A DNA stretch of 64,000 nt from Calothrix anomala FACHB-343 (GTDB taxonomy: Bacteria > Cyanobacteriota > Cyanobacteriia > Cyanobacteriales > Nostocaceae). A model generated the notes under the pieces. It was not told where the DNA came from. It saw only the letters and a list, made by a program, of their open reading frames with translations, and made no database searches. The DNA is taken from contig NZ_JACJQG010000038.1 in the NCBI RefSeq assembly GCF_014696435.1, forward strand, positions 1 to 64,000. The letters run 5' to 3'. This document shows, piece by piece, positions 29,562 to 64,000 of the stretch (positions are counted from its first letter, which is position 1; the number at the start of each line of letters is the position of its first letter). The translations under genes and the position numbers were made by a program.

Positions 29562-29637
29562 TGCATTCAATTTCAGTAAAATTACCGATGATTTTATCTA
29601 CAATATATCTTAAGCGGGCTTTAGTTGTGTGATGCTG

Positions 29638-31929: not shown

Positions 31930-32058
31930 ACTTCACTCTCTCAAACCTAAATTAAGGATTAAACGGTATCTCAAAATACAGATTGCCATACTCTCAAGTC
32001 TCCCATCCTGGCAATGCATTAGGTAAAATCTTCAGTAATATCCCCAATTTTAACTGTA
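31930..32058. promoter_or_regulatory. Divergent promoter region between the caspase and third CHAT genes
   Basis: A 129-bp spacer separates the start codons of the two divergent units, so both promoters lie here and could be co-regulated. No operator was identified. Confidence 0.55.
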
Positions 32059-38949: not shown

Positions 38950-38997
38950 TATGTCCTCTTTTGATATCAAAATTAGGGAACAATACGTTGTGATTTC

Positions 38998-44766: not shown

Positions 44767-45605
44767 CCTACACTCCATAATCCCTGTGACTGCACCAGTG
44801 GGTTGGCTAGAAGAACTAGAGGCTGACTAGGTTTAATTGGTTGATTCATGTCAACCACCCACTGCCGATTGGCAATAAGATGACGAGCAACAGAAAGCCC
44901 CATACCTGGCTCTAGACCCAGTTTGTCATCACAATTAGCAGCTATTTTTGCTAGTGACTCTTTACCTTCTGCTACTCCCAGTGTTAAGGCTGTTGCAATT
45001 CGACGAATATCAGATTCTGACAGGGGTGACAGGTCTTCAAGGTTGAGGAAAGGGTGTAGCCAATGAACATTTCTGGCGAATGTTTCAGGAATTTCATTTT
45101 CAGTGACAATTCCCCAATTAATCTCTCTGGAATGCCAGTATTGACGCTCAATTTCTAACTTTTGGATTGTGCGTTCTGATTGCAAATCTTTTGCAGACCT
45201 AAGCGTGCGGATTTGTTCGGTAACTCCAATATTTTGGCGGACAGTGATACAGAAGTCCGCGACCATCACTAAGGGTTCTTGAGTTTTTGGATCTTTGGGA
45301 TGAGGTATACCGCTCTGTTCTGCGATCGCTAGTGTTTCTTCTAGAGGTAGTAGAGGATACTGCTCTCGAATATCACAAACAATAGACGACCAATCCAGTA
45401 GATAAAAATAGTTCAGTTCAAAATTGCTGTGTAAGTGATGAACTCGATTGGTTTTCCAACCTTTGATTCTGCTAGCAAGACCTTGAGATGCTACATCTTG
45501 AATCAAAAGCCAGGGTTGGTACTCAGAACCTCTACCCTGCCCACGACCTTCTTTAAGATATCTATCAATAACTATCTGATTTGCTGTTCTTTTGCGTTTA
45601 GCCAT
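44763..45605 (-). CDS. tnsA: TnsA-like endonuclease with substituted catalytic-region residues
   Basis: 280 residues from the ATG at 45605, with GGGAGG upstream; the open frame extends six codons further. The endonuclease fold motifs are HHLHSNFELNYFYLLDW (Glu63) and VMVADFCI (Asp117). The third motif, QxK in Tn7 TnsA, reads TLRSAKDL here, so Thr134 stands for Gln and Arg136 for Lys if the alignment by eye is right. The C-terminal half (RRIATALTLGVAEGKESLAK) resembles the TnsA winged-helix domain. TnsA nicks the 5' ends of the element together with TnsB. Position first in the operon is as in Tn7. Confidence 0.92.
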   Translation of the reverse strand: MAKRKRTANQIVIDRYLKEGRGQGRGSEYQPWLLIQDVASQGLASRIKGWKTNRVHHLHSNFELNYFYLLDWSSIVCDIREQYPLLPLEETLAIAEQSGIPHPKDPKTQEPLVMVADFCITVRQNIGVTEQIRTLRSAKDLQSERTIQKLEIERQYWHSREINWGIVTENEIPETFARNVHWLHPFLNLEDLSPLSESDIRRIATALTLGVAEGKESLAKIAANCDDKLGLEPGMGLSVARHLIANRQWVVDMNQPIKPSQPLVLLANPLVQSQGLWSVG

Positions 45606-45747
45606 TCCCGCCTCCCAATTCAATTACTAGGGTTATTCTTCAGACTGGTTTTTACACACATGTTGCGGTTGCAGTGCTACCCACAGCGTCAACTGCATTT
45701 TGCCTATGCTACAAGTTCTGAAGTGGAAGGCTACTCAATGGCTTTCT

Positions 45748-46706: not shown

Positions 46707-48173
46707 TTAAAGCACACCAATAGCATTAAATTTGTCCAGCTTTAATTTTGCCCACTGATCATTAGGCACAACCTTTGCATATGCACGTAAAAAAGCAATT
46801 GCTTTCCCTGCATCTCTCATTTGCTCGAAAACCATAACAAGACGCTTAAGGATGGCGGGATGGTTTGGGTGCTGGCGGTTCAACAATAACAAAATCTTTG
46901 CAGCATCCTCGTACCTTGCCAGTAAACCTAGCAGTGAAGCTTTCTTCAGTAGTAAATCTGGCAAATCGCCTTCAATTACTAAACACTTTTCTACCATTCC
47001 AAAAGCTTGAGGAATCTGCCGAGTTTGTATATAGGCAGTTAAGGTGATACGACAAAGGTCGCGGCCTACAGGAGACTCAACATTTAAAAAATATGGATGT
47101 GCTTCAATATCTCTTAAGCAGTCAAAAAACCTTCCGTCTCTGTATGCTGCGGTGATCATTAGTAAGAAAGCATGGGGGTCAGAGCTACTTGCAAACTCTG
47201 AGTGCGCCACATTTTTTGCTTGAGAGTACGCTCCAGCTTCTAACAAGCGCAAAGCCTGAGTTGACCAATCTTCTGAAGGCTGTTGCCGAGGTGGCAAGAT
47301 ACGAATTGGTTGGTAATCGATTTGGGCACGCGCAACCCGTTTAAATGCGATCGCCATTTCTGAGAGTGATTCCCAGCGTTCTACTGGCTCAAGGGCAAGG
47401 CAACGCAAAATAAAATGCTCTAAAGCAGGCGAAACTGAGGAGTTAATCTCACGAGGACGAGGAAAAGGTGTATGCCGAGCAACTTGGCTAAGAGTATCGT
47501 GAGGCAATCGGGCTGTTACTAGATGGTAAATTAAAACACCTAAGCTGTAGATGTCTGCTTTAAACAGAGATTCAGCACTACGTCCTTTGACACTTGAGCC
47601 AACTATTTCAGGTGCTGAGTAAAGAATTGTTCCACCATTTTCGCGGGTTCTAGCATATATATCATCAGGTAACACACTGCATCCAAAATCAGTCAATTTG
47701 ACCTGATCTCCAGAGACAAGAATATTTTGGGGTTTAATATCCCCGTGGGACATTCCCAGTCGGTGGAGATGTTCTATTCCAGCTAAAACTTGTTGGTAAA
47801 TATCGAGAATTCGCTTGTAACTAGCAACAAATCCTTGCTCTCCCTTATCCAGTAACTGAGATAAGGTCAGGCTAGGGAAATATTCCATTTCAATGACGTA
47901 CCATTCACGCTCAGGAGGTACTCGTCCCATCCAAAAGACTTGAATAACGTTGGGATGAAGTTCTGCTCCCACCAAGGCTGAACCCTCGGCAAGTTCTTCA
48001 TTGGTTGCACTTTGCTCTTTTGGTATTTTTACCGCCACAATTTGATTATCTTCTAGGCGTTGCGATCGCCAAACCCAACCATAAGAACCATCGCCTAAAC
48101 ATTCGAGCAGTTCATAGCGATCGCCTAACCGCCGATCTGGGCGTGGAATAAAAAATTTAGATTTGCGACTCAT
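46707..48173 (-). CDS. Hanks-type Ser/Thr protein kinase with TPR-like C-terminus
   Basis: 488 residues. Kinase motifs: Gly-loop G27-D-G-S-Y-G32, VAVK with Lys49, catalytic-loop S-H143-G-D145-I-K-P-Q-N150 (HGD instead of HRD, so Asp145 and Asn150 are kept but the preceding Arg is absent), DFG at 162-164, then APEIVG. The catalytic set is complete, so activity is expected. Residues ~300-488 are helical repeats resembling TPRs (ALRLLEAGAYSQAKNVA), probably for partner binding. The ATG overlaps the stop of the upstream gene by one base (TGATG). It is the last gene of the island and may set the activity of the other proteins by phosphorylation, as PglW does in Pgl systems. Confidence 0.92.
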   Translation of the reverse strand: MSRKSKFFIPRPDRRLGDRYELLECLGDGSYGWVWRSQRLEDNQIVAVKIPKEQSATNEELAEGSALVGAELHPNVIQVFWMGRVPPEREWYVIEMEYFPSLTLSQLLDKGEQGFVASYKRILDIYQQVLAGIEHLHRLGMSHGDIKPQNILVSGDQVKLTDFGCSVLPDDIYARTRENGGTILYSAPEIVGSSVKGRSAESLFKADIYSLGVLIYHLVTARLPHDTLSQVARHTPFPRPREINSSVSPALEHFILRCLALEPVERWESLSEMAIAFKRVARAQIDYQPIRILPPRQQPSEDWSTQALRLLEAGAYSQAKNVAHSEFASSSDPHAFLLMITAAYRDGRFFDCLRDIEAHPYFLNVESPVGRDLCRITLTAYIQTRQIPQAFGMVEKCLVIEGDLPDLLLKKASLLGLLARYEDAAKILLLLNRQHPNHPAILKRLVMVFEQMRDAGKAIAFLRAYAKVVPNDQWAKLKLDKFNAIGVL

Positions 48174-48763
48174 CAGTTTTCTCGCAGAATAATGTCCGAT
48201 AGGTACAATAGATTTTTGCTGTTTTCTCTCATGACGAATTCAAGCAGTACAAACTGACCCTTATTGGCTCCTCTGACTCTTTCTTTTGCTTGAGTTTCAA
48301 ATCCTTCTTTAATAATTTTCAGCAAATTTGTGTGATTGGGGGATGAAACAGTTGTTTTTCTCCAGTAAGCCAACAATAAGAGTTCTGCTGTCTCGCTCCA
48401 ACGGTGCTGTGCCAGCAGTAGGTTTTTCGCTTTATCCTCTAATTTCCACTGTTCGTTCTTGTTGCTGTAACGCTCAAATTCAGCAATTAAAAAAGGTGAA
48501 TGACTAATTTTGTCGAACCAAACCGCATCTGAACGCACATCATCCCCAATATGAGCGTAATTGCCTTGTTTAAAAGCTGGAACCTCTGCAACTCCCACAT
48601 AGCCTAGACGATTGCCCAGTAAGGCTAAAAAGGTTGTTCCTAGGCTGTGAATTGATAAACCAAAATCTGGAAATCCCCAGTTATTAGTCCAGATTGGTAG
48701 CAGTTCTTGAGCCGTTGTCAAATTTTGCAGTTCTGTCATGGTGTGTTCAAGGGAATTAGCCAT
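48173..48763 (-). CDS. Protein of unknown function in the HerA-kinase island
   Basis: 196 residues; an internal ATG at codon 9 is another possible start. It overlaps the HerA gene end by eight bases and the kinase start by one. No known motif stands out. The sequence has aromatic-rich stretches (IWTNNWGFPDFGLSIHSLG, SDAVWFDKISHSPFLIAEF) and a C-terminal helical part (KGQFVLLEFVMREN). The HSPFLIAEFERYSN stretch is reminiscent of nuclease-like beta-strand cores, but not enough to call one. Tight coupling on both sides says it works with its neighbours. Confidence 0.7.
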   Translation of the reverse strand: MANSLEHTMTELQNLTTAQELLPIWTNNWGFPDFGLSIHSLGTTFLALLGNRLGYVGVAEVPAFKQGNYAHIGDDVRSDAVWFDKISHSPFLIAEFERYSNKNEQWKLEDKAKNLLLAQHRWSETAELLLLAYWRKTTVSSPNHTNLLKIIKEGFETQAKERVRGANKGQFVLLEFVMRENSKNLLYLSDIILREN

Positions 48764-50441
48764 TAAATCTTCCCCAGAGATTTAAAACTTCTGGTGATTG
48801 CCCACCATGAACAAGTGCCTTAGTACCAATTTTGACTAATAGTGGTGCAGGAATTGAGCGTCCGCAAATCAATGCTTCCCCAGTAGAAAGGCTGGGTAAT
48901 TCCTCAATGTCAGCTTTGCTCACCATATCCGAAGTTTTAGTAATAAACCTCTGGTCATCTGGGTTTTTCAAGCGCATCGCAATTAAAGTATTGCATTGGG
49001 ACGTAACATCAGAATCTAGTTTTGAAGGACGCTGGCTAACAATGGCAAACCCCACCCCAAATTTGCGTCCCTCACTGGCAATTTTCTTAATAATGCGGTG
49101 GCTTACTGCTGCTTCTCCTGCGGGTGCAAAGTTGTGTCCTTCTTCGTAAACTAAAAAACAAGGACGAATGCGGTCTGTTTTACTTGCAGCAGCGCGGAGA
49201 ATTTCACTAGAAATTAAGGCTGTAATAATTTGTTTTGCTGTATCGCTTAAACCTTGTAAGTCAATTACTACAAGTCTGCCGCGTTTATCACTGGGTCGTC
49301 CTACCATATCATATATATCTGTAGGTCGTGCTAGGGCTGCGGAGTAAAAACTTTGGGCTTCATTCAAGACCCGTGATAGCTTCATAGAAGCAACTGCTGC
49401 ACTACGACTATTAAGGGCGGTAGCCTCAGCAGAACTTAGTTCTTCCCACTCACGTAACTTTTCTATGCCATCTCCCAGGTAGTACCGTAAAGAGTTAATA
49501 TCTCTAGGTTCGGTAGTTTCCTGAATTTTCCAGTAACGAATAGCTACATCAAGAACACGCTGTTGTGGCTCTGTTAAACCAGGAAGAATTTCGGTCACAT
49601 CATCCATTTCAAAGCGGTCAAATTGCAGAGCTAGTTCTTTATTTTTCCCTGCATATTTTTCCCGAAATGAAGGATTTTGGGGCGTGTAAACTACTATTCC
49701 CGCACCAGCTTCAATTAATCGCTTAAAGTTTTCTTGGATTTCGGGAATAGTTTTGCGATCGCGGGGGTCATCAAGATTGTTAAAGTCAAGGTTGAATTGC
49801 AAATTGCCACCTTGCAAAGCACGGCCATATTCGCCGTGAGGGTCAAATACAACAACTGTGCCATTATTAAGGGTGACAATACGCTCAATAATCCGGCCGA
49901 CCGTGTAAGATTTACCAGAACCTGTCATAGCTAAGACTGCCAGATGTTCTGTAACCAGGCGGTTAACGTCTAAATATACAGGAACAATATTCTCGCCAGA
50001 TTCATAACCTACTAAGTTGCCTATATGTAAACTGGTTTGTTCATCAAATTCGTAGAATGAGCTAAGAAATTGATAGTCTACAGTTTCCACTTTTGCACCA
50101 GGGTCAAGCGCACGGCGAGGGATTTTGATTTGACCAGTGTATGAGTCTTTGTAACCAACAAGTTCTAGTTTGGCAGCTACTCGTTCTCCTGTAATTTGTG
50201 CGCCAGGTAGTAGCTCTAAATCTGTGAGCGATTGCCCCATCTCTGAGTTATAGAGAACATTGGTGCGGATAATACTATTAATTCTCCCTAAAACATTAAT
50301 TTCTGGCTCCTCTTGGCATTCTTGGTGACGGATGCGAACAAATTCGCCGCGTCTACCAGCAAAGGATGAGGAAAGAATCATTGTTAGGTTGTTGGGATCA
50401 CCAGTGTTACCTACTAATTTCCCTAGAATTTGATGTTTCAT
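48756..50441 (-). CDS. HerA-like (DUF87) DNA-translocating ATPase
   Basis: 561 residues. An N-terminal HAS-barrel-like region (~1-120) precedes the FtsK/HerA-type ATPase: Walker A in LAMTGSGKSYTVGR (Gly174-Ser178), Walker B-type strand VVVFDPHGEYG (Asp200-Glu204), a second acidic motif (FLVYEEGHNFAP) and the GVGFAIVSQRPSKLDSDV sensor-like stretch. HerA forms hexameric double-stranded-DNA translocases, usually working with NurA nuclease or other effectors. The next gene upstream in the operon is a NurA-like protein, which supports this pairing. Spacing to that gene is 18 bases. Confidence 0.92.
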   Translation of the reverse strand: MKHQILGKLVGNTGDPNNLTMILSSSFAGRRGEFVRIRHQECQEEPEINVLGRINSIIRTNVLYNSEMGQSLTDLELLPGAQITGERVAAKLELVGYKDSYTGQIKIPRRALDPGAKVETVDYQFLSSFYEFDEQTSLHIGNLVGYESGENIVPVYLDVNRLVTEHLAVLAMTGSGKSYTVGRIIERIVTLNNGTVVVFDPHGEYGRALQGGNLQFNLDFNNLDDPRDRKTIPEIQENFKRLIEAGAGIVVYTPQNPSFREKYAGKNKELALQFDRFEMDDVTEILPGLTEPQQRVLDVAIRYWKIQETTEPRDINSLRYYLGDGIEKLREWEELSSAEATALNSRSAAVASMKLSRVLNEAQSFYSAALARPTDIYDMVGRPSDKRGRLVVIDLQGLSDTAKQIITALISSEILRAAASKTDRIRPCFLVYEEGHNFAPAGEAAVSHRIIKKIASEGRKFGVGFAIVSQRPSKLDSDVTSQCNTLIAMRLKNPDDQRFITKTSDMVSKADIEELPSLSTGEALICGRSIPAPLLVKIGTKALVHGGQSPEVLNLWGRFNG

Positions 50442-50459
50442 TGCTATTTGTGCAGATAA

Positions 50460-51623
50460 TTAAACAAAATCATCTAAATCTGATAGCCATAAATCCTCAA
50501 CTTCACGCCGTTTAATTTCTACTTGTAGGCTTTGGCTGTAATATTCGAGGAAATTATCTAAAGCGTTTTGTTCTCGTTCTGCCAACTGGATTGGTAAAGG
50601 TGCGGCTTGTGACCCACCAGTTAGTGTGAGTGCCATGATTTGAGAACAAATTCTGTCTAAGTTTTTTTGGTTCCAGTGAGGTTCATCCCCAATTAACTGG
50701 AGTAATTGCGGAGTATTTGTTTGTGCCGCTTTGAAATGATAACCAAGCACTCCTAATGAAGTGACATCGCTGGGTTCCATGCGAGGTGTTTGTACACTCA
50801 TACGGAAAGCTGCGGTGCGCGTGTAACTGTTGAGAATGCCGTAAATAAAACGTCTTTCACCAATGCCTGCGATCGCGTCTTCTGATCCGATAATTTGATG
50901 AGTTAGATTTACATCAACTCCCTCATTATTCAGTATGTGTTTGCGTCCCTCGGCTGTGCGTAAGTCTTGTTGGGCAATATGAACTATGGCACCGTAACGC
51001 TCTGATGCTAAACCCACAACAGCAGTACCATTAGGATTCCAAGGCTGAAGTTTTTCGCGGTGCTTTGACCAGAAATTAGAAATTGCCTGAATTGCACTAT
51101 CAAAAGCAGCGCGATAACTTGCGTAACTTTCTGCTTCTCGTAGCGGAACCATGCTCCGGTCTAGCACCAGAGGACAATCGAGCAAAATCAGGTCATAGGG
51201 ATTTTCCGATCGCATTGCCCGGTCTGCCATCTCGTAAGCCTGACGCACACCAATAAGCTGCAACCGTTTTGACTGATTTTCATAGTTGATATCATCTAGT
51301 TCGCAAGTGCTATCCTGACCAACTGTGGATATTACATTGTCATCAACAGCTAAATCGACACGAACCGCAGCCGCAGCATATAGAAAACCCCCGATGGTTT
51401 TTGTAGTTGTGGCTTTAGTAGATATTCCAGCTACGCGAACATTTAAGGGATTAGGGCGGTCAACTGAACGTACTAAGCCTGCTTGGAAGAATAGGGGGGC
51501 GACACGTTCAATATCTCTAATTTGCTTTAATATGCGACCAACGGTTCCTGGCAGGTTAATCTGTGATTGAATAGCCAGAGTTTGTACCAGCGATCGCCCC
51601 TGTGTGTTAAATGTTAGTGTCAT
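50460..51623 (-). CDS. NurA-like nuclease-domain protein, active site possibly altered
   Basis: 387 residues. The region ~62-160 follows the NurA pattern: VRVAGISTKATTTKTIGG, then FLYAAAAVRVDLAVDD, YEMADRAM, and DLILLDCPLVLDRSM (Asp149). The first motif, DGS in NurA proteins, appears as AGIS (if the alignment is right), so one metal-binding Asp may be absent while Glu131 and Asp149 remain. The C-terminal half is unremarkable apart from a possible helical tail. It starts with a four-base overlap on the upstream gene and ends 18 bases before the HerA gene. The HerA neighbour is the main support. Without it I would say unknown. Confidence 0.6.
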   Translation of the reverse strand: MTLTFNTQGRSLVQTLAIQSQINLPGTVGRILKQIRDIERVAPLFFQAGLVRSVDRPNPLNVRVAGISTKATTTKTIGGFLYAAAAVRVDLAVDDNVISTVGQDSTCELDDINYENQSKRLQLIGVRQAYEMADRAMRSENPYDLILLDCPLVLDRSMVPLREAESYASYRAAFDSAIQAISNFWSKHREKLQPWNPNGTAVVGLASERYGAIVHIAQQDLRTAEGRKHILNNEGVDVNLTHQIIGSEDAIAGIGERRFIYGILNSYTRTAAFRMSVQTPRMEPSDVTSLGVLGYHFKAAQTNTPQLLQLIGDEPHWNQKNLDRICSQIMALTLTGGSQAAPLPIQLAEREQNALDNFLEYYSQSLQVEIKRREVEDLWLSDLDDFV

Positions 51624-52444
51624 CTGGCTAATGCCTCCAGTTCTTCTGCATAAGCTAAATAGGGACTTTGACGAATTACATCTATGCCGCTTTCTGTTAA
51701 CTGAACTCCCTTCACCAACCCCTGAGATTGCAAATCGCCTAAACAGGTTTGGGCTGTGTTTCTATCTAGAGAAAAAATAGTTGAACTTTGTAATGCCGTT
51801 AGTGCTGTTGCTGCATCAACAAATTTTTGTGAGACTAAGTGAAGCATGACTATAACGTGTTCTTCTTTTAGTTGAAATGAAGTTTGGTCTACAGCTTGGT
51901 TCTCAACCGGTTGACCAGCCAAACTGTGTAATGTCTCTAGCCATTTTTGCAATTCTTGTTCTTTGTCAAGAACGGCTAAAGACCATATTGGTAGACAGGT
52001 GATAGCAAAAATTCCAGAGTGGGGATGCTTGCGATAGTAAGCAGTATTGATGCTCATGTCTTCCCAAGCACCACCAATTTCACTGGCAATTTGTAATTGT
52101 CCTTGCAGCTCATAATCTACTTCTGGAGCTAGCGCTTTAACTAGCGGTGAATCTTGTTGTGGTTTGACACCGGAACGCCGCCTTATTTCCCAGTTACAGG
52201 GAATAGAAGATTTTTTGGTTTCAAAGGGAGGAATTAACAATAATGTTCTTCCTGGTTCCTGTGACCAGTTGTACCAGTCTTTTTCTTGTGATTCAGCAGC
52301 TTCTTGAAAATCAATGCCAAACATTAGGCACAAACCAAAAGATGGTAGTTGATTTTCAACAAGTTGAGCAGCAATCACATTTTGTAAAATGCGCTGGCGG
52401 CGATGGGTTGCTAGAGTCCCGACTAACCAGATGCTGGTATTCAT
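51620..52444 (-). CDS. Unknown protein with winged-helix-like C-terminus
   Basis: 274 residues. It overlaps the giant ATPase gene and the NurA-like gene by four bases each. The N-terminal two thirds have no recognised motif (SFGLCLMFGIDFQEA, SGIFAITCLPIWSLAV). The last 60 residues (NTAQTCLGDLQSQGLVKGVQ, then TESGIDVIRQ) look like a winged-helix or helix-turn-helix end with the usual wing-strand Leu/Val pattern. It may be a DNA-binding or regulatory subunit of the island. Function unknown. Confidence 0.65.
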   Translation of the reverse strand: MNTSIWLVGTLATHRRQRILQNVIAAQLVENQLPSFGLCLMFGIDFQEAAESQEKDWYNWSQEPGRTLLLIPPFETKKSSIPCNWEIRRRSGVKPQQDSPLVKALAPEVDYELQGQLQIASEIGGAWEDMSINTAYYRKHPHSGIFAITCLPIWSLAVLDKEQELQKWLETLHSLAGQPVENQAVDQTSFQLKEEHVIVMLHLVSQKFVDAATALTALQSSTIFSLDRNTAQTCLGDLQSQGLVKGVQLTESGIDVIRQSPYLAYAEELEALAR

Positions 52445-55400
52445 AATGTTTTTCCTCCTAGCCGATAGGTGCGAACGAGGAAGCCTTGATTAACCAGCTT
52501 ATCTGCTTCATCTGCTGTTAATTGGGGGTCACTTCCTGAGTTAATGGCGGTAATAATGTGTTGCCATCGTTCAAAGTAAATGCCTGTAGTATCAAGGATT
52601 TCTGCTGCTGTTTGTAAGAATTTTTCACGGTGTTGTTCTTTGAGTGCGATCGCATCCTTTAAACTTCCTGTTGCTTCTAACTCTGCCAGAGTTAATGGAT
52701 TAAACAAAGGTTTCCCTTGTATTTGTAGTAAAGCATTCACACTCTGTTCTGTGGATTGCAGGCTGGTGTCATTTAAGAGTTGCTTGTAATAACGTGTAAT
52801 TGCGTTCTCTAAAGTGGTAATGTCGCCTAAGAGAACATCTAATCTGTTTTTTGCTTCTTTTGGAAGTTCAACGGCTACATCCATTAACGGTTTGAAGTTA
52901 CCCAGTTTTGCTGGTTTATCATAGATGGAGTCATTCCGAAGACGTTCGGCTTTTTCTTCTTGGATGTCGAGCAAAGCGTCTTCAACCAAACTAGGTTGAT
53001 TTGATAATTTGCTAATTGGTGGTAAATTCTGAGGGTAATCGAAATTTCCAGGCACATTATCTAGTGCAGTTTGCAATTTTTGCAGCCTATTTTTGACATC
53101 ATCAAATCTGCTTTTGATTTGTTCATAGGCTTGTTTAGTGCGACGGAATCCGCTCACAATTGACCCGTCTATTTCTCCTAAAGGAGTTAATTTTTGAATG
53201 CTGAGGTCAATACCTACTTCTCGTCCTAGCTGTGATAACTTTTCAGTAGCTTCAGCAACTTTTAAATCTTTGAGATACTGGCCAAGGGTATCTACTTCCG
53301 TTAACTGTTGGCGACCTGTACTGCCTTGGGGAGGGCTAGAGTGCAATGCTCCATTTAAAATACCACGAATTTTTTCTAAAGTTAGAGTAAACAAAGATGT
53401 AGGAAAGTAAGTTATTTCTTGAACTTCTACCTTCATTTCTTCTTTGAGTAAATCAATGCGATCGCAAATTATTTCTGCAACATCCTGTACTTGTTTGGCG
53501 AAAATTTCAGCGCGGCGAATGCGTTCCCATAAGGGTTTTGAATCATCCTCAAAATTGAGGGTTTTAATGTTGTAATCCGATTGCAGGCTTTCGTACTCAT
53601 CCCGCAAATAAACAGAACTAATATTTTGCAGTAATGATAGACGATGCTTTGCTGCTGTAATCAGAATGTTTTGTTGATTTTCAAAATCAGTAGCATGAGA
53701 GTATTGATTGATTTCATCTGCTTCTAATGCCGATAAAGACTTTTTAGCTTCTGCGATTTTTGCTTTAGCCTGTCTAGTTTTTGAACCTATATAGGAACTG
53801 TTTAAAGGCGCAAAAAAATCACGTACTTTTCCTTCACCAAAAACTAGTTCCATATCTTGAACTATTTTTGGGTAGTCATTCTGTAACCAGTTTTCAGCTT
53901 CGTTAATGAGATTGCCTAACTCACTATGAGTTTTCAGGCTATATTTTTTATCTTTACCGCCTGTAACATCTGGGTCAATTTTGGCAACCTCTAGCTCACA
54001 GGCTAAAGCCATCCAATCAATGAAAATATCTTTGGGTTTTGCACCTTCCCATATATAACCCCAAAACCATTCTTTTTCTGCTACTTCTAAAGTCCAAACC
54101 CAGTTTTTTTCCTGTAATAGACGGCCAATAATTTTTTTCATAAAAGGTGGAAATACTGCAATAGCTGCATCATCTAACCCATCAAATAGCCAAGCACGCT
54201 CTTTTGGTTCATAGCCTTGTTTTTGGGCTTTAGGAGTAATTCCCAATTTGCTCAAAACAGCTACTAATTTTTCTAAATCTATGCCACTGCTGCGGTCTAA
54301 GCGTATTACTTGAGGTGAATTTTGTTCTATCAGTAAATAACGCCAAGCCTTAAATAATAATTCTTTCTCGTCATCTTTTAATTTACCGCTAGGACGAAGC
54401 GGAAAAGCGATCGCACCTTGTTCATGTAGTTTTCTCCGCCATTTGTGAACTTCTTGCATTAAAGGGCGAGATAAAGATAAAATCCGGTTATAAAATGCTG
54501 TGGTAAAACCTTGAATATCTATTTTGAACCCCAGAAAAGCTGAAGTAGAGATTCCGATTTGATGCAGTACAAATTCTTCGCTATCTGATAGCTGATAAAG
54601 TAACAGGTATTGGTGGGCATTTTTGAGAACATCTGTTGAGGGTTTAGCAAAAAGATCAACCAAAGCACGGGAAGATGTAAAAGCTAAAATAGGGGTTCGC
54701 CCTTCCTGAATAAACTGTGTTGCTGCTTGGCTACACAGTAGCTCTAGTTCTTCTTCATTGTTTACCCAAGCCAAAATCAGTCTACCTTGAGGATGCAGCT
54801 TGAGTGCATCACAACTCATCAGCCCTCCATTTTTTCCGCTAGGAGTAGTAATTGCTACAACATATTTTAGCCCTGAGCTAACGGGGTTGTAGTTCCAGTT
54901 CTCATCTAAAAGACGCATCGCTCCTGTAAGAATTTGGATAGCTTTGTCAGAGCGAGATTGCGGCTCAAGCTGCTTTATTGCTTTTTCGTGAGCATTATTA
55001 AAGTCTGGATCTCGAAAAATCAGAGAGTTGCGGCTCTGTTTGCGATAACGCAAATTCAGCCGTCCTAACATAGCAATACTGGGGCCGATATGTGTTGCTT
55101 GGGATTCTTCTAAGTCTTGTTCACCTATGAGATTTCGCCACAACGCCCGTGCGGCATCTTCAGCCGCAGCATGGGGATAGAGTAAGCTGACTAATTGAAC
55201 AAAATCATTTCTTCGTAGAGGAATTAAAAGATTGTATTTACCCTGGTTATTCTGGCTATTGCGGCTTTCGTGAATAGCGTAGGTGCTGAGGTTAGCTAAT
55301 AGTTGTTTCAGGTCGAGGGGCTGATCTACACCGTTTAATTTCCAAGTGCTGAGATCGCGAGTAAACTTGCCTTCTCTTAGAGCTTTAGTGCAATCGACTT

Positions 55401-56778: not shown

Positions 56779-56840
56779 TTCATTACCAATAGATTTTGTA
56801 ATTAGTTAAGCCAGTATTTTTTATGTTTAATTTATTATTT

Positions 56841-58109
56841 TTATTCTCCAATATTAGTATTTTCATCCATAATAAAATCAATGGTTTCTCTAATCTCAGG
56901 TGCAGCATTGATTATCTTTATTTTTTTATATGCTGCCATACCATATTGACGAATCGGAGTAGCTAATAAAGCATTCAAAAAGCTATGAGGGGCAGAAATA
57001 ATATCATCAAAGTCTATTGTTAAAGACTTTCCCTCAGCAATTGCAGGCATAAGTTTTTCATCTCTAATACGAATTGCTGTCATCTTATCCTCAGCATATT
57101 TACCAAAATAATTACGTACATTGATATAAAAATTTGTCTTGGCTTCGATATTAGAAGCTTCGGAAAGCTCTTGCGTGGCTGCTGAACGAAACTCAGACAT
57201 CATCCTTTGTAGATTGATATCCTGCGAAATACCTAGTTTAATAGTGACGTAGACTAATGTACCTGGCCAGTATGATTCTATTTTTCTTCCCGTTACATCA
57301 GTTGGTGAAATATGTACAACTCCATCACCAGAAACAATGTGCATATCGGCATGAAGTTTACGAATAATATTACTTGAAATATATAAGCCAATACCAGCAT
57401 TATTTTTAGCTTGATATGGGTTGTTTTTAAAAAAAGTACCGGAAACTTGAGGCTTCAAAGCTTTTTTAATAGCTGATACATTATCATCAATTTCCGGATA
57501 AACTTGCCGGAGATGTTTTTTAATACCAATTCCAAGGTCAGCTATAATAAAAGATATTTCATCTTTTTCTCTATACCAAGAAAACTGTATTATTGATGGA
57601 ATGTCGGGGTTGTGTCCATGTTCTAAAGTATTGTATAGTAATTCTGAGAGAACATAACGTAGAGTTTTTTCATACTCAACATCAAATCCATGAGTATAGC
57701 TTTCAGCTTTTTCTAAAGCTGTTCTAAAATCTAAGCTATTCCTAATGGCGAAAAGAGGCTTAGAATTGTGACTAATAAAATTATCTTCAGGTGATTCAAA
57801 AACATAAAATAAACCATTCGCACCCATCATCCGCCACATTTTTGATGCGCCTTTACTCTGCCATTTATCTACATTGTCATAATAAAATTTCACCTTACAT
57901 CCATTAGTTCTTAAGTGCCAAACATAAAGTACAAATAATGACAAAGCTTGATAATTAGCTCTTAAACACTGGCTAAAGTCTATTAAAACATCTTGATTTT
58001 TTAACTTCCAGTCAAATATAGATAAAACTCTATTAAAGTCATATGTCCCATGATAAGTAAATGCCAAACTATAAGGAAGATTAATGATAAATTCTTCTGA
58101 TTTATACAT
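56841..58109 (-). CDS. GHKL ATPase with flanking STAS-like domains
   Basis: 422 residues. N-terminal ~1-110 has a STAS-like pattern (DVLIDFSQCLRANYQALSLF). The central GHKL ATPase shows an N box (ELLYNTLEHGHNP, ~157-169), a G1 box (ADLGIGI, ~190-196) and a G2 box (NAGIGLY, ~237-243). The C-terminus (~350-400) resembles the DUF4325 STAS-like domain (SLTIDFDDIISAPHSFLNAL). No histidine phosphoacceptor or sensor region is visible, so this looks like an anti-sigma-type or signalling ATPase rather than a two-component kinase. In the same operon as a Ser/Thr kinase, it suggests a phosphorylation-dependent switch. It starts two bases before the end of the upstream gene. Confidence 0.82.
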   Translation of the reverse strand: MYKSEEFIINLPYSLAFTYHGTYDFNRVLSIFDWKLKNQDVLIDFSQCLRANYQALSLFVLYVWHLRTNGCKVKFYYDNVDKWQSKGASKMWRMMGANGLFYVFESPEDNFISHNSKPLFAIRNSLDFRTALEKAESYTHGFDVEYEKTLRYVLSELLYNTLEHGHNPDIPSIIQFSWYREKDEISFIIADLGIGIKKHLRQVYPEIDDNVSAIKKALKPQVSGTFFKNNPYQAKNNAGIGLYISSNIIRKLHADMHIVSGDGVVHISPTDVTGRKIESYWPGTLVYVTIKLGISQDINLQRMMSEFRSAATQELSEASNIEAKTNFYINVRNYFGKYAEDKMTAIRIRDEKLMPAIAEGKSLTIDFDDIISAPHSFLNALLATPIRQYGMAAYKKIKIINAAPEIRETIDFIMDENTNIGE

Positions 58110-58111
58110 AG

Positions 58112-59170
58112 TTAATTAATAGGTTTAAAAACTTGAAATAAAGTGTCAAATTCTGGGTGAATACTCCAGTTAACTAATTTGCGTTGTCTGTCGCCAAATA
58201 GTCCTCTGCCATGTCTTGCTTGCCCTGGTTCGGCGGCGTGTAGTTCAATTGCGCCTTTTGTCAAAGCTGCACCCAGCAATTCATCCATCCATTTTTCAAA
58301 GCTACTGCCAGTTTCTAAAACTGAGGCGATCGCAGTTTTTTCAGCCAGCGATCGCATAACAGGTTCAACGGGCGAAAATCCGCGAATATCGGCGTAGGTG
58401 CTGGTAGCAGACTGAAGTTGAGTGCTGGGAGAATTAGCGAATGGCGATAAAATAGCTATTTCTGGTTGTTGTGCTAAATATGACGGTAAAATTAATTGCC
58501 CATTTCGCAGCCAACCCATGCTATCAAGTAGATATAACGGTGCTTTTAATGATGTTAGAGATAATTTATTTTCTGTAAATTTAAGATTTATGTTGTAGCT
58601 ATTATTGCTTTTAATTTTAGTATTTTTACTTTGGTTGTTTTGTAGCAGAGGGCTAGAAGCTGAAGTCAGCCAAGCACCAAGGCTGGCGTTTTCTATATCT
58701 TTTGTCCAATTTGAGGATGTAGAATTTACCTGAATGGGTTTGTGCCAATGAATCAGTCGCCAATCGCCTAAAGTCAGGTGCAGCAGTAGAACACGTAACC
58801 AAACACTCCATTGCAATAAATGAACGGCTAGGGCTTCGAGGGTTTTTTGGGTGTCGTTGTCGCGCCAGAGGTTGAGGAGTAATTCGGCTTGTTCAGATAA
58901 TTTCCAGTTTTTACTGTCGGGGATTTGTTCTAAAAAGCCCACACCAAGGATTTTGGTGGGTTTATTTGTCCTGTCCAACCCAAAAAGACCGGGAGTGCTG
59001 CGGCGGGAAATTGTATTGGTAAGATGTTGTTCCCAGGTTGACCAGTAACCGGAGAATGTGGTTGTTTCTGACTTTGCCAGAATAGCTAATGCCCGTAACC
59101 AAGCTTCTGGGTCGCGGGGTTCTGACCAGAAGGAGGGAGGCACAAGTAGGATTGACATTTTCTGGCTCAT
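58112..59170 (-). CDS. Unknown protein of the defence-like island (HPEF-type C-terminus)
   Basis: 352 residues. The start overlaps the stop of the upstream gene by four bases. The N-terminal half has Trp-rich helical stretches (DPEAWLRALAILAKS, LLQWSVWLRVLLLHLTLGDW). A central low-complexity Asn/Lys stretch at ~185-205 (NNQSKNTKIKSNNSYN) suggests a linker. The last 25 residues have RQRKLVNWSIHPEFDTLFQV, similar to the end of the next gene's product, which points to a shared small C-terminal domain. No family recognised. Confidence 0.68.
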   Translation of the reverse strand: MSQKMSILLVPPSFWSEPRDPEAWLRALAILAKSETTTFSGYWSTWEQHLTNTISRRSTPGLFGLDRTNKPTKILGVGFLEQIPDSKNWKLSEQAELLLNLWRDNDTQKTLEALAVHLLQWSVWLRVLLLHLTLGDWRLIHWHKPIQVNSTSSNWTKDIENASLGAWLTSASSPLLQNNQSKNTKIKSNNSYNINLKFTENKLSLTSLKAPLYLLDSMGWLRNGQLILPSYLAQQPEIAILSPFANSPSTQLQSATSTYADIRGFSPVEPVMRSLAEKTAIASVLETGSSFEKWMDELLGAALTKGAIELHAAEPGQARHGRGLFGDRQRKLVNWSIHPEFDTLFQVFKPIN

Positions 59171-60390
59171 GTGCTAATAACCTCCAACAGCGCAGTATTG
59201 CCAGTAGTAGCAAGTTTTTCTTTCACCCAGCGATCGCAGGTATTGCGAATCGCAGAGGTGATATGATTACTCAGGCGAATAAAAGATTTACTGCCTAAGA
59301 CGCGATAGCAGCTATCAGAAAACTCCGGGTGAATGACGTAACCAGAACGTTGTCTACTTGTACCAGTTTGGAAACGCCAAACTTTCTGATGCAATAAGTT
59401 TTTAATCAAGGGTGCAAGTTGGTTATCAAGTTCTGTTGTGGATAAGTTGGGTGTAATTATGTCAACTCCTAGCTGATTTAAGACCAGCAGTAGTAGTTCA
59501 GCAAGGCTACCGCAAATCACCTCTTCCCCAAGCGGCGTAGTAATGACTACTAGCACTTGGGTAGGTTCGTAAAATTGGGAAAGTTGGCTTGATTCAAGTT
59601 CTAGAGATAATTTGCCAGAGATGCGTTCTGCTGCCCAGGCTTCTTGTGTAAAAACAATCTGTGCTAAAAGAAACAACCAAGGGCGGTAAAGTACCCAGCG
59701 CATGATAGCTTGGTCTGGGGTGTCTTCGGTTTTGATTTCCGCAGGGGTTAATTCTCCGCATTCACCAAATAGCACCGAGGAATTTTGAGTGAGTAATTTA
59801 GGGCTTTCCGCAGTGGGTAAACGCAGCAACCGTCCCCGCACCCAATTAATCCCAGGGTTGAGGGGGTTGATATCTGGGAGAGAATTTGCAGGTGTTCCCT
59901 GTTTTCCTTCTACTAAGGAGGCGGTAGCACCGAAGACGCGCAGCAATTTTGGTGTAGCTTGGGCTTGTTCGGCTGGGACTTCAAAAATGATGCGTTCTAT
60001 TTCGGAGTATTTGGTAGCGGTGAGGGCTGCTTGGGGCAATAATTTCAGTAATGTTTCAGCAGCTTGTCCCAAGGTGGTGATAGCTTCGCAAAGTCCTTGA
60101 GTATCCCGTCTTGTACCTAGTTCTTGCAGTCGGGCGGCGATAATTTTACCCCAGGCTTGGCGGATTTCTGGTTCGCAACTGAGGAGTGCGGCGACTGTTT
60201 CCGAGAGGCTGGGTAAGGTTTGCAATAATTTAACAGTAGTGGGGGTAGCGACAGCGCGGTTAGTATTGGCGGATGTTGTCCACAGTCCCAGAGTTTCACC
60301 TGTTTTCAAGGGGCTAATGTCTGTAGTGGGGGCTTCGCCTGTTGTCAGAAATTCTTCTAGGGCGCGGATGGTAGAAGTGGAAACATTCAT
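59167..60390 (-). CDS. Unknown protein of the defence-like island (HPEF-type C-terminus)
   Basis: 407 residues. A helical N-terminal part (LQTLPSLSETVAALLSCE) is followed by a central region with GINWVRGRLLRLP and WVLYRPWLFLLAQIVF. The C-terminal part has RQRSGYVIHPEFSDSCYRV, resembling the end of the neighbouring protein, then a helix with IRNTCDRWVKEKLA. It starts nine bases after the PIN toxin stop, so it is probably co-transcribed with the toxin-antitoxin pair. No catalytic motif was seen. Function unknown; it may be a structural or target-recognition subunit. Confidence 0.68.
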   Translation of the reverse strand: MNVSTSTIRALEEFLTTGEAPTTDISPLKTGETLGLWTTSANTNRAVATPTTVKLLQTLPSLSETVAALLSCEPEIRQAWGKIIAARLQELGTRRDTQGLCEAITTLGQAAETLLKLLPQAALTATKYSEIERIIFEVPAEQAQATPKLLRVFGATASLVEGKQGTPANSLPDINPLNPGINWVRGRLLRLPTAESPKLLTQNSSVLFGECGELTPAEIKTEDTPDQAIMRWVLYRPWLFLLAQIVFTQEAWAAERISGKLSLELESSQLSQFYEPTQVLVVITTPLGEEVICGSLAELLLLVLNQLGVDIITPNLSTTELDNQLAPLIKNLLHQKVWRFQTGTSRQRSGYVIHPEFSDSCYRVLGSKSFIRLSNHITSAIRNTCDRWVKEKLATTGNTALLEVIST

Positions 60391-60399
60391 GTTCTCAAG

Positions 60400-60828
60400 T
60401 TAGATGGGGTTGGGATTCCAAAACTCAAGGTCGCTAAAGCTGCCAAAGTCTCGATAATTAATTGTCCATACAGGACATTTACGTTTACGCGCAGCCCAAA
60501 TCACCGTTGCATCTTCTAAGCTTCCTTGCCAATTGGGAATAGTGGTTAGTAAGGAGCAGATTTCGAGTAAGTCTACTTCGTTAATGGGGATGAGGTGTAA
60601 GCTTTCTACCATGATGTTAAGACTGGCTTGGGCTGTCGTGGGGTTGGTTGTGTGTAGCAACCATTTATACACTTCAAACAAAATAGGAATGGGAATATAA
60701 ACTCTGACATTTGCTTGAGTCAGTTGTTCAAAACCGCTTGTGCATTCTGCGTGTTGGGGGTCTTTGGCGTATAACAGGGCGATTAAGGGGCCAGCATCAA
60801 TTACAAGTTGGGAAAGGGGCGTTAGCAT
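60400..60828 (-). CDS. PIN-domain toxin (VapC-like)
   Basis: 142 residues. The PIN acidic residues are in place: Asp11 in LVIDAGPLI, Glu52 in LFEVYKW, Asp106 in LEDATVIWAA, and Asp127 in NYRDFG. PIN proteins are Mg-dependent ribonucleases, usually the toxin of type II systems. It overlaps the antitoxin gene by seven bases. It lies inside the island, not at its edge, and may be a separate stabilisation module or a component. Confidence 0.88.
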   Translation of the reverse strand: MLTPLSQLVIDAGPLIALLYAKDPQHAECTSGFEQLTQANVRVYIPIPILFEVYKWLLHTTNPTTAQASLNIMVESLHLIPINEVDLLEICSLLTTIPNWQGSLEDATVIWAARKRKCPVWTINYRDFGSFSDLEFWNPNPI

Positions 60829-61049
60829 GGATTAATGATATCTATCGAGTCTTCAGGGTTATTGCTGGCATTTGTGGGAGATTCGCTGACAATTCCGGCT
60901 AAGTTAAGCAGTTTAGACAAGTTTTTGTTAGTCAGTTTTTCTTCTAGTGCTTCTTGAATGAGGCTATCTAAGGTTTGGTTGGGATTATCTTTTAAGTATT
61001 GCTCTAGTTGTTGGGCTAGGGTATCAGGTAGGTTGATTGTGCATTTCAT
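60822..61049 (-). CDS. Ribbon-helix-helix antitoxin (VapB-like)
   Basis: 75 residues. N-terminal MKCTINLPDTLAQQLEQYL followed by a helical part (QTLDSLIQEALEEKLTNKN) fits an RHH DNA-binding antitoxin. The C-terminus is acidic and Ser/Asn-rich, the usual toxin-binding tail. It precedes the PIN toxin, overlapping it by seven bases, in the standard order. It starts 59 bases after the end of hsdS. Confidence 0.85.
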   Translation of the reverse strand: MKCTINLPDTLAQQLEQYLKDNPNQTLDSLIQEALEEKLTNKNLSKLLNLAGIVSESPTNASNNPEDSIDIINPC

Positions 61050-61108
61050 AGATTTGGGGGATAGGGAATGGGTGATTTTTCTGTGATTCTCTGTTTTGAA
61101 TTTAAAAT

Positions 61109-62647
61109 TTATTCGCCTTGTTCATCAGCGTATAATTGGTCAATTGTTTGATAGATAAGGTCTAAGTCGGGAAATAAGGGTGGTTCGTCTTTGATGTCGT
61201 AGCCTTTGCGGGTGAGGCGTGAGAGGATGGCTTTGTCTGGTTCTCTGTCGCCTTTTTGTAGTGCTTCTTGGGCTATTTTGAGTTCGTCTTCGGTAAGTTT
61301 GCCTTCAATGAGGGCTTCGACTAGGAGTTTAGCGGCGGTGGTGAGACATATTGACAAATCTTCTCCTATGAACTTGATTAACCACCGTTTACCTTGTTCC
61401 TCAACTATCTCGTCTGGATATTGGGGAACTAATGTAGAAATTGCAATATCATCATCAATTGCTGGATAAGAACCGCCTGCGTTCCATCGCATTAGCTGCT
61501 GTGTAGCAGCATCAGAACGAAGCCAACAGTGATAAAAAACTGTTTCGGCTTTTGATTTGAACCTTAGTACAGAAAAGCCAGTAGAAGCAACTATGGGAAA
61601 ATCTAAATCTACATCTGGCACTAAGGCAATATTTTTGCGGTTTGGGCGAACAGTTGATACTAATACATCCCAAGGTTTAACTAATAATTTTGCACGAGAA
61701 GGAGCCTCTTTTGTAAATAATATTTTTGGCGCAATTGAACCATTACTTAAATTAATTTCTCCAATCTCAAGGTAGTAAAAAATATGAGAACTTTTATTCC
61801 ATGTCTTTTTAACTTGATTAGCTAATTTAGAAAGAGGTATAGCTCTATTTCTATACAATACTTCTTTAAGATTTATGTGGGCAGGATCATAAAAAGCTGT
61901 ATCCAATCTTTCGGGATGAATGATTTCTGATTTTGTTCTATATGAACGATACATTCCAACTTTTTCCTCATTCCAATAAGGAATTGAGAAAAACTGTTTA
62001 ACTTCTGTTTCTATTTTCTGCGATCGCTCTCTCAACCTCTCCGCCAACCTCACCTTATCCCCTATGTAGGTTTCAGCTTGTTTATCAACTTTAGGTAACA
62101 GGACAGTCTTAGTATCACTTACTCCTAAATACTGAATAATACTTCCAAGAGAGCGTCTTACAAGCTGCCGCCTTCCATATCCTGAAAATAAAAAAGCAGC
62201 GATAAAATCAATATCAAATTTGCCGTTAGGTCGTAAAGCAATGATGTGTTGAGTAATATTAGCTTTTGGTATATTTTCAGGTATTTTACAAATTTTTTCT
62301 CCTACACTAGCTTTTACAATTAGTAAATCACCTGGTAGAACTTCTGAAGCTTTTAATTCTGCATGAACAGACGGATGAAGATAAGCCATACCGCTAAAGT
62401 CAACTTGCATAGCCCCAATATTACTGATTCGGAAAAGTGGTATTATTCCTTTATCCAAATACAGTGAACTAGGAAGCTTTGAGCCAAAAGGTCCTACAAA
62501 AAAACGTCCTGCTTTACCAAGATATTCTGATCCAAATTCCTCTAAACGATCCTCATCGCTAAGGTATTGAGGATGATAGTATTCTGGATCAAGTCGTTCA
62601 GTTACTAAGCGACGGGCTTTTACTCGATTTTTGTGCATTCTATTCAC
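61109..62647 (-). CDS. hsdS: Type I restriction-modification specificity subunit (HsdS-like)
   Basis: 512 residues from a GTG at 62647, overlapping the hsdM stop; an ATG at 62638 is also possible. Two target-recognition halves are suggested by repeated patterns: YLGKAGRFFVGPFGSKLPSS and GIIPLFRISNIG in the first, AIPLSKLANQVKKTWNKS and WDVLVSTVRPNRKNIALV in the second. A helical spacer (VRLAERLRERSQKIETEV) lies between them. The C-terminal ~90 residues form an extra helical region (LVEALIEGKLTEDELKIAQE). HsdS determines which sequence the methylase modifies. Confidence 0.85.
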   Translation of the reverse strand: MNRMHKNRVKARRLVTERLDPEYYHPQYLSDEDRLEEFGSEYLGKAGRFFVGPFGSKLPSSLYLDKGIIPLFRISNIGAMQVDFSGMAYLHPSVHAELKASEVLPGDLLIVKASVGEKICKIPENIPKANITQHIIALRPNGKFDIDFIAAFLFSGYGRRQLVRRSLGSIIQYLGVSDTKTVLLPKVDKQAETYIGDKVRLAERLRERSQKIETEVKQFFSIPYWNEEKVGMYRSYRTKSEIIHPERLDTAFYDPAHINLKEVLYRNRAIPLSKLANQVKKTWNKSSHIFYYLEIGEINLSNGSIAPKILFTKEAPSRAKLLVKPWDVLVSTVRPNRKNIALVPDVDLDFPIVASTGFSVLRFKSKAETVFYHCWLRSDAATQQLMRWNAGGSYPAIDDDIAISTLVPQYPDEIVEEQGKRWLIKFIGEDLSICLTTAAKLLVEALIEGKLTEDELKIAQEALQKGDREPDKAILSRLTRKGYDIKDEPPLFPDLDLIYQTIDQLYADEQGE

Positions 62648-64000
62648 CCCTCACATAAGCCCCAACAATAGCCGCCAAATCATTTGTTACACCAGTACTG
62701 TAATCTTCCACATTATTCTTAACCAAATACCCCAAAGTATCTGCCACCGCCATAAACACATCCGGCTGTGGTACATCCTGAAAACGCTGTGGATCTTGTT
62801 CCCTTGCTTGACGTTTTTGTAAATATAAAATACTCGTTTTCGCACCAGTTCCCGACAACTTAAACGTATCCGATGGCAAACTAATTACCGCCTTAACTAT
62901 CGCCTTCCCACCATGAAATTGACCCGTCGCCTCATCTTTTGTACCCATAATGTACTCACGCACATATTTGTCCCCAGAGTTACAAAGCACCCCATCAGGT
63001 AATACGATTAATAACCTTCCTCCCGGTTTCAGCATTTGTAAACAACGGTCAATAAATAAAACTGCTGGGTCAATACTCGCAGATACAGGCTTCCATAAAC
63101 CCTTACTATCCGGCTTTCCACCCATCGCCAACCCAGACACAGAAGGCTCATAAGTATAAGTTCCCGCTTTCTTGGGATTCTCTACTAAATCAGAGCGAAA
63201 CAGTTGTAAAATCTTTTCTCTCGCTTCCTCATAACTTTTTTTAGCCTTTTCCTGACCCTTGCTAAACTTCGGCGTACCAAAAGGCGGGTTAGTACAAATC
63301 AAGTCATAGCTACAGGGTTTAAATTGGGCAGTAATTAACGAGTCATAGGTACGAAAAATTTTTGCTTTTGGCGCACCCAACAACGCCATATTTACCCGCG
63401 CCAACGTCACCATATCTTGGGAATTATCCGCACCAATAAAACTGTACTGGCACATATCCTGAAACAGCTTGTCACGACGCACATCTTCAGAAGTTTCCTT
63501 ACCCAATATTTCTAGTAACGCCCGTTCTAAATAGCCCATCGCCACTGCACCAAACCCGTAACTTCCACAAGCAGGGTCACAAAAGCGAAAAAGTGGCTTC
63601 CCCTCTTCATCCCGCGCTGTTAAAAGTTCCGGCGTTTCTTCTTTAATATCGTGAAAAGCAATAGCCAACATCGCCTGTTTTACAGGTGCAGGAGTCAAAT
63701 ATACTCCCATCCCTTCCGGTTTAAACTTAGCCCGCAGAAATACATCTAACAACCGCCCCAGCACATCCGCCGCAATATCTGCTAATGTACCTTGGGTTTT
63801 CACCACCTGATCATAATTATTAGTAACAGCCCCCAAATTTTGAATTAAATCTAGTAAGGTTTCATAGTTGCGGGGTTGTCCTAGTCGCAGGTGAGTTTGT
63901 TCATCAAAAATTGCGTGAGACTCGCCATTATCATCTGTCACCACATAGTCAGCGTGAGATTTAAAGTGGTCAAATGCCGCCTGAATTTGTGCTACTGCTT
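62640..64000 (-). CDS. hsdM: N6-adenine DNA methyltransferase (HsdM-like), 5' end outside the window
   Basis: 453 codons visible; the reading frame is open to the window edge (residues reading AQIQAAFDHFKSHADYVVTD), so the N-terminus is missing. Motif I reads FCDPACGSYGFGAVAM (DPACGSGGF in relatives). Motif IV is NPPFGTPKF, the adenine-binding motif of gamma-class N6 methyltransferases. The FIGADNSQDMVTLARVNMAL stretch is the usual AdoMet-binding follow-on. The C-terminal region (GGRLLIVLPDGVLCNSG) matches Type I HsdM. It is followed by hsdS. No HsdR appears downstream. Its presence upstream, beyond 64 kb, is unknown. Confidence 0.92.
   Translation of the reverse strand, partial: AVAQIQAAFDHFKSHADYVVTDDNGESHAIFDEQTHLRLGQPRNYETLLDLIQNLGAVTNNYDQVVKTQGTLADIAADVLGRLLDVFLRAKFKPEGMGVYLTPAPVKQAMLAIAFHDIKEETPELLTARDEEGKPLFRFCDPACGSYGFGAVAMGYLERALLEILGKETSEDVRRDKLFQDMCQYSFIGADNSQDMVTLARVNMALLGAPKAKIFRTYDSLITAQFKPCSYDLICTNPPFGTPKFSKGQEKAKKSYEEAREKILQLFRSDLVENPKKAGTYTYEPSVSGLAMGGKPDSKGLWKPVSASIDPAVLFIDRCLQMLKPGGRLLIVLPDGVLCNSGDKYVREYIMGTKDEATGQFHGGKAIVKAVISLPSDTFKLSGTGAKTSILYLQKRQAREQDPQRFQDVPQPDVFMAVADTLGYLVKNNVEDYSTGVTNDLAAIVGAYVRGE

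Follow-up and report, generated by a model that had tools for sequence, protein, structure and literature searches.

Does the run of closely spaced genes at the end of a 64,000-nucleotide stretch of Calothrix anomala FACHB-343 (contig NZ_JACJQG010000038.1, positions 1 to 64,000; this whole stretch is called the window here) act as one system, and what might that system do? A sequence-only reading had seen 12 genes of a possible undescribed anti-phage island, linked to methylation and regulated by a kinase. The genes it named all lie on the minus strand as described, with neighbours that overlap by 1-8 bases or are 2-62 bases apart, though its own list holds 13 colinear genes, which extend from position 46707 to the window end, and two more (u132 and a second HsdS-like gene) follow beyond the window. 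Ten of these genes form an operon that recurs in other genomes: a type I-like methyltransferase (HsdM), its specificity subunit (HsdS), a giant ATPase, a HerA-type translocase, a NurA-fold protein, a Ser/Thr kinase (STK) and the proteins u132, u407, wH274 and u196 (coordinates in the table). We lean towards interpreting this horizontally moving operon as one modification-dependent restriction machine with a role in defence.

Recurrence was assessed across GTDB with a five-sequence NurA alignment and two short peptide patterns, whose 132 pattern matches led to at least 34 loci, a lower bound since two short patterns were used. Four loci are cyanobacterial, including the copies of Calothrix sp. 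NIES-4105 (G662), a Xenococcus metagenome-assembled genome (MAG; G486) and genome G479. The other 30, with hosts such as Vibrio and Acinetobacter, we take from their titles to be proteobacterial, except for one Desulfobacteraceae MAG. According to blast-labelled frames and an order check, gene order is unbroken in 33 of the 34 loci; L044 was flagged purely through a second HerA 4.5 kb further on, and L032 holds NurA alone and is uninformative on order. The nine genes from HsdM to STK stand in the same order in 23 of the 34 loci, or 24 when L044 is counted, HsdM often being cut by the locus start; two of the 24 are L035, where 122 HsdM residues are seen, and L036, where HsdM, ATPase and HerA each lie in two frames. 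The remaining loci are incomplete or stop at the end of a contig or locus. In L055 the ATPase is broken and HsdM, HsdS and u407 are lacking, and L054 has neither HsdM nor HsdS within 3.7 kb upstream. In this latter copy, from Thiodictyon, a 396-aa protein and two Fic-like-looking frames occupy the place where HsdM and HsdS are expected (L054 905-3725).

The core proteins also diverged in parallel. Across the 18 loci in which all nine proteins are of accepted length, pairwise distances correlate with those of HerA at r 0.93 for HsdM, 0.85 for u407, 0.91 for the ATPase, 0.82 for wH274, 0.97 for NurA, 0.93 for u196 and 0.93 for STK. HsdS follows HerA more loosely (r 0.41), and its mean pairwise identity is 30% versus 86% for HerA. 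Each of these correlations exceeds all 200 label shuffles, and host phylogeny may contribute to them. Because the nine genes share their order in 24 of 34 loci, and given this parallel divergence, an assembly by chance is ruled out; conservation reaches past hsdMS.

Within the cyanobacteria the operon is rare. In a draw of 292 genomes from the phylum, the giant ATPase was found in one, namely the window's own; among 388 genomes of the order it matched eight. Full copies are those of its own genome and G486, with a fragment in G479; the short matches in G374, G429, G434 and G442 (26-29% identity over 137-164 C-terminal residues) and in G498 (62 residues) were dropped before copies were counted. 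A NurA profile detected two of 193 genomes of the window's own family (its own genome and G662) and two of 27 of the family of G486 (G486 and G479). The NIES-4105 copy has the compact order S2-u130-M-S-u409-ATPase-wH-NurA-HerA-u195-STK (M and S, HsdM and HsdS; S2, second HsdS-like gene). Here, the u407 homologue alone separates HsdS from the ATPase, and RHH, PIN, u352 and GHKL are missing; in the Xenococcus copy, other small genes lie between HsdS and u407, and neither u352 nor GHKL has a match.

The RHH/PIN pair is therefore a local insert, being absent from the NIES-4105 copy, and so are u352 and GHKL, which have no match in any of the 34 loci. All four were rejected as core members, including the two that the sequence-only reading had counted in the unit as unknown and ATPase. 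It had asked whether the gene set recurs without the hsdMS or PIN/RHH parts: the latter pair is missing from the NIES-4105 copy, and hsdMS proved to be part of the core. The junction of HsdS and u407 is a spot for insertions (L013 12206-13286; L034 1889-3526; L057 1910-3100; L062 1666-2871), occupied by toxin-antitoxin-looking genes in cyanobacteria and by a 396-401-aa protein in Methylobacter. At the same junction, L034 has a frame similar to RHH.

The operon was traced to Escherichia coli by tblastn of the kinase against plasmids, which led to an E. coli plasmid whose copy is frame-broken, and from there by megablast to chromosomal operons. These encode u128, HsdM, HsdS, u428, a 1428-aa ATPase, a 282-aa protein, a 385-aa NurA-like protein, a 561-aa HerA, a 180-aa u196 and a 489-aa kinase, and all ten match counterparts in the C. 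anomala window or contig. Identity is 74% for HerA (over 561 residues), 52% for HsdM, 46% for NurA, 43% for the kinase and 39% for the ATPase (over 1454 columns), followed by u196 with 36% (E 1e-27), u407 with 32% (E 5e-38), wH274 with 27% (E 1e-16) and HsdS, whose best piece reaches 25% (E 6e-19). Homology is weakest for u132, with just 39 residues (E 1e-7). Of 5,426 complete E. coli genomes, 271 match the nine-gene, 15-kb stretch from HsdM to STK; in 207 of them the match covers 80% or more of it, and in the other 64 it is partial, sometimes tiny. The 337 genomes matched by a query that included part of the integrase are not an operon count.

E. coli W (4778988-4794395) has the nine-gene stretch at 100% coverage, with McrBC genes and phosphorothioated-DNA enzyme genes adjoining the operon and all ten genes annotated without a pseudogene flag; RefSeq names six of the ten proteins "hypothetical". 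PMC3032704 counts W among four strains with a safe designation for laboratory use. The E. coli copy adjoins a tyrosine integrase, two other strains have a tRNA-Leu close to the operon, and in strain M9 HsdS is interrupted by an IS3. Neither the ATPase, NurA, u407 nor wH274 matched any of 72,556 plasmids, and two scans of viral contigs, made with shallow alignments, gave no match. On the E. coli plasmid pZ0117ECO0116-1 (L026 1-2400), an integrase lies together with the u196 end and a kinase whose frame is broken, and the same strain's chromosome has a stretch matching at 98.9%; perhaps a piece of the operon moved to a plasmid. The nine-gene stretch is also present at 100%, as in E. coli W, in a record labelled DH5alpha (NZ_CM135829.1 2377478-2392498), whose strain label may be wrong.

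In C. anomala the island is cargo of a Tn7-like element of 48,516 bp that extends past the window, from position 19069 to contig position 67584, a setting that the sequence-only reading had not reported. The element begins with TGTAT and ends with ATACA, has AGATT on both flanks as a 5-bp target duplication, and bears at each end three copies of the repeat TAAA(C/G)T(T/C)GGAAAC, inverted between the two ends. The related genome G657, from the same genus and 98% identical next to ruvC, does not carry the insertion and runs from the equivalent of contig position 67578 to that of 19061 across about 211 non-matching bases. The Xenococcus copy also adjoins Tn7-like genes, with a TnsB-like match.

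Which parts of a restriction system does the operon hold? PADLOC, Pfam and NCBIfam recognised HsdM, HsdS, HerA, the kinase and GHKL/DUF4325, and returned nothing convincing for u407, u352, wH274 and u196. For u407 the Pfam matches were weak and scattered and no relative in PDB was convincing, and for wH274 the Pfam scan gave no match above cutoff. The predicted structure and family alignment of u196, in turn, point to a restriction-endonuclease fold with E...D...ExE residues that are invariant in the family, a set resembling the BamHI active site (Glu77, Asp94, Glu111, Glu113). We thus regard u196 as a candidate BamHI-like PD-(D/E)xK nuclease, and the earlier impression of modification without visible restriction is for this reason probably wrong. 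The u196 model also matches SfsA, Card1, NucC and acetyl-CoA carboxylase.

The NurA-like protein has a NurA fold in its predicted model, and its usual VDG motif was absent in all 35 sequences, where V-S/A/G/V-G-I/V stands in place, the motif being located by eye. The motif-I Asp (Asp49 in T. kodakarensis) is essential (PMC12977600); here the catalytic Asp appears to be lost and the protein may be inactive as a nuclease. Motifs of the other enzymes look intact: NPPF in 25 of 25 HsdM family members that passed a length filter, TGSGKS letters in four of four HerA sequences, and Walker A and Walker B patterns in 31 and 28 of 32 ATPases. Within the ATPase family, 15 of 21 members match KAP_NTPase weakly, the window copy falling below the curated cutoff, and the family's Pfam scan gave otherwise stray matches; matches of its profile to influenza HA2 were dismissed, by judgement, as coiled-coil resemblance. 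The kinase shows HGDxKxxN in 32 of 32 and VAxK in 31 of 32 sequences, and a weak TPR-family match at residues 375-475. Its catalytic loop is without the usual Arg, which makes it a non-RD kinase.

From these features we posit the following course of events. HsdM and HsdS would mark host DNA as self by methylating a type I-like site. Unmarked DNA would then be recognised, probably via HsdS/HsdM together with u407, wH274, u132 and the KAP-like ATPase, and a HerA hexamer seated on a dimer of the NurA-fold protein would pump it. The main cut would fall to u196, with NurA either altered or acting as an inactive adaptor, and the kinase would gate the machine or report infection. Antiphage function, this division of labour, the direction of kinase control and the oligomeric states are what we infer, as is the trigger, in which unmarked DNA would set off both pumping and cutting.

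A methylation-guided, motor-driven restriction system is, in our view, the best-supported reading, and its main rival, which we consider unlikely, is an abortive one. Methylation would there label self, foreign or broken DNA would be sensed by HerA-NurA together with the ATPase, and the effector that shuts the cell down would be the kinase, a role proposed for kinases of other systems. The conserved catalytic loop of the kinase would suit such a role, as would its best PADLOC matches, the defence kinases mad6 and PD-T4-6, and PglW kinases may act suicidally according to PMC12839542. However, PADLOC holds defence proteins only, so the nearest match there says little, and a general library ranks PknB first; moreover, the operon has its own candidate nuclease, u196, with an invariant catalytic set.

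That the operon belongs to or descends from BREX or the HerA/FtsK capture systems, its giant ATPase being a BrxC- or Orc/CDC6-like component, is somewhat more doubtful still. A methyltransferase, a giant ATPase and, in type 2, a kinase within one operon are shared with BREX/Pgl, whereas the present operon has HsdM/HsdS rather than PglX by best match and a HerA plus NurA-fold pair. PglZ was, as the sequence-only reading had noted, not seen, neither among the PADLOC matches listed for the 13 window proteins nor in a Pfam scan of ten of them; no BrxC/PglY-type ATPase appeared among the listed PADLOC matches or in Pfam, no comparison of profiles or folds with BrxC having been made, and DUF6079, DUF4007, TGT and GNAT were likewise absent from the matches listed for the operon proteins. 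PMC10853773 and PMC12839542 describe neighbourhoods of HerA, an Orc/CDC6 ATPase, a wHTH protein and a nuclease, and the HerA motor, large ATPase and nuclease of HerA/FtsK capture systems and BRC treated there have their likeness here. A P-loop giant ATPase does lie in the HerA operon, and the combination of a HerA/FtsK motor with a nuclease partner is found in HerA (DUF87) and, by its model, the REase-fold u196, wH274 being a putative DNA-binding partner. Where those systems have an Orc/CDC6-type ATPase with an inserted inactive REase, the giant ATPase shows weak KAP matches. What sets the operon apart is its hsdMS pair, a NurA-fold protein, a kinase and a candidate BamHI-like nuclease.

Two further systems are alike in part. 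With type I restriction-modification the operon has HsdM and HsdS in common, but nuclease and motor are separate proteins here, and no HsdR was among the PADLOC matches listed for the 13 window proteins. HerA-NurA complexes, including TdpAB, differ in that the motif-I Asp is apparently absent here throughout the family and in that the partners are HsdMS rather than phosphorothioation, to which Tdp is linked.

A divergent MADS system is highly improbable, being largely refuted by direct comparison with Pseudomonas loci. We found mad7 in three of 298 genomes of the genus, and two loci gave mad1-mad8 (mad1 and mad8 by position only). HsdM, HsdS, a Ser/Thr kinase and a HerA-like region in one operon are common to both systems, and mad6 is the best PADLOC match of our kinase. 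Yet the PADLOC mad2-mad7 scores of one Pseudomonas locus, used as positive control, were far higher than those here (mad6 646 versus 154; mad2 415 versus 50; mad5 160 versus 64), and the kinase reached 143.7 bits with NCBIfam MAD6 (NF047741), below its cutoff of 460. By hhalign, HsdM matched mad2 (99.6%), HsdS mad5 (99.8%) and the kinase mad6 (99.5%, over about 256 kinase-domain columns), with HerA-mad8 at 39.9% (E 3e-4, over 114 columns). No other pair of the ten core and eight mad families exceeded 20%, the mad alignments of 2-3 sequences limiting reach. This leaves mad1, mad3, mad4 and mad7 without a counterpart above that level, as well as u132, u407, the ATPase, wH274, NurA and u196; mad3, mad4 and mad7 were also absent from the PADLOC matches listed for window proteins. 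The Pseudomonas systems further differ by a mad6 of 1383-1402 aa and a mad8 of 1804-1895 aa, whose C-terminal HerA region matches weakly, as opposed to the free-standing HerA of 561 aa. The resemblance to MADS suggested earlier consequently fails gene by gene, and no named system among those compared accounted for the whole operon. An equally improbable explanation, that a HerA-NurA operon for DNA repair or end resection (an activity of such complexes, PMC9960219) merely happens to adjoin hsdMS, is at odds with the patchy spread and mobile context, the divergence in parallel with HsdM and the altered NurA motif.

Returning to the restriction machine, we tentatively propose, at rather less than even confidence, that it represents a distinct and widespread defence class parallel to BREX, MADS and Dnd: a methylation-guided HerA motor with NurA as a non-catalytic docking ring for a BamHI-like nuclease, under a non-RD kinase and a giant KAP-like ATPase, and overlooked in a standard laboratory strain, E. 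coli W, described as restriction-minus in its genome paper. In the literature searched, the matches listed held no description of the operon; preprints and most subscription papers lay outside this scope, and a prior description is possible. Six E. coli operon protein accessions do not occur in the full texts searched.

The second HsdS-like gene, which may give a second specificity, is followed on the contig by a ruvC-like gene. It also lies upstream of u132 in the NIES-4105 and Xenococcus copies and is unannotated in the E. coli operon. Between it and the ruvC-like gene, close to the element's right end, a short frame (L003 4809-5069) has the appearance of a helicase remnant. Of the element's own genes, those labelled TnsA and TnsC were named from gene order and appearance, the TnsC-like frame having no PADLOC match. 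Other cargo (window 22095-35307) includes three large proteins with TPR repeats and one that is caspase-like (29638-31929; PADLOC caspase 75 bits), possibly a second, separate defence cluster.

Table. Features of the window and adjoining contig (window positions unless marked as contig).
Feature	Position	Strand	Evidence or remark
Left end of Tn7-like element	19069..19217	+	TGTAT start, three repeats
Tn7-like transposition genes (TnsA-, TnsB-, TnsC-, TniQ-like frames)	37024..45623	-	mid-element
TniQ-like frame	37024-38970	-	TniQ_IB 99 bits
Frame among Tn7-like genes	38998-40986	-	
TnsB-like frame	42571-44778	-	TnsB 39 bits
Ser/Thr kinase (STK) with TPR-like C-terminal half (core)	46707..48173	-	PknB_PASTA_kin 152.7 bits; PADLOC mad6 154 bits
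u196, candidate BamHI-like restriction nuclease (core)	48173..48763	-	modelled fold and active-site residues
HerA-type DNA translocase, 561 aa (core)	48756..50441	-	DUF87 150.6 bits
NurA-fold protein, motif-I Asp apparently replaced (core)	50460..51623	-	predicted structure model
wH274 (core; winged-helix label unproven)	51620..52444	-	27% identity to E. coli homologue
KAP-like P-loop ATPase, 1445 aa, long C-terminal part (core)	52441..56778	-	weak KAP_NTPase match
GHKL ATPase with STAS-like DUF4325 (local insert)	56841..58109	-	DUF4325 45.9 bits; HATPase_c 34.9 bits
u352 (local insert)	58112..59170	-	no match in any of 34 loci
u407 (core, without Pfam family)	59167..60390	-	32% identity to E. 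coli homologue
PIN-like toxin candidate (local insert, non-core)	60400..60828	-	TIGR00028 18.5 bits (below cutoff); PADLOC PDC-M07B 18.1 bits; label from sequence-only reading and appearance
RHH-like antitoxin candidate (local insert, non-core)	60822..61049	-	no family match; label from sequence-only reading and appearance
HsdS specificity subunit (core, most diverged part)	61109..62647	-	PADLOC Specificity_I 166 bits
HsdM-type N6 DNA methyltransferase, 676 aa (core)	62640..64000, frame runs on to contig 64670	-	Pfam N6_Mtase 70 bits; PADLOC MTase_I 647 bits (window part)
u132 (colinear, outside window)	contig 64689-65087		
Second HsdS-like gene (colinear, outside window)	contig 65146-66543 (L003 3146-4543)		

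If our interpretation is correct, an unnamed multi-gene restriction machine would be present in the 207 complete E. coli genomes that carry the stretch at 80% coverage or more, as well as in cyanobacteria and in Vibrio, Acinetobacter and further hosts. Ten proteins would share out the tasks of marking, pumping, cutting and signalling, and the roles of the kinase and the giant ATPase in BREX-like immunity would thereby become testable gene by gene.

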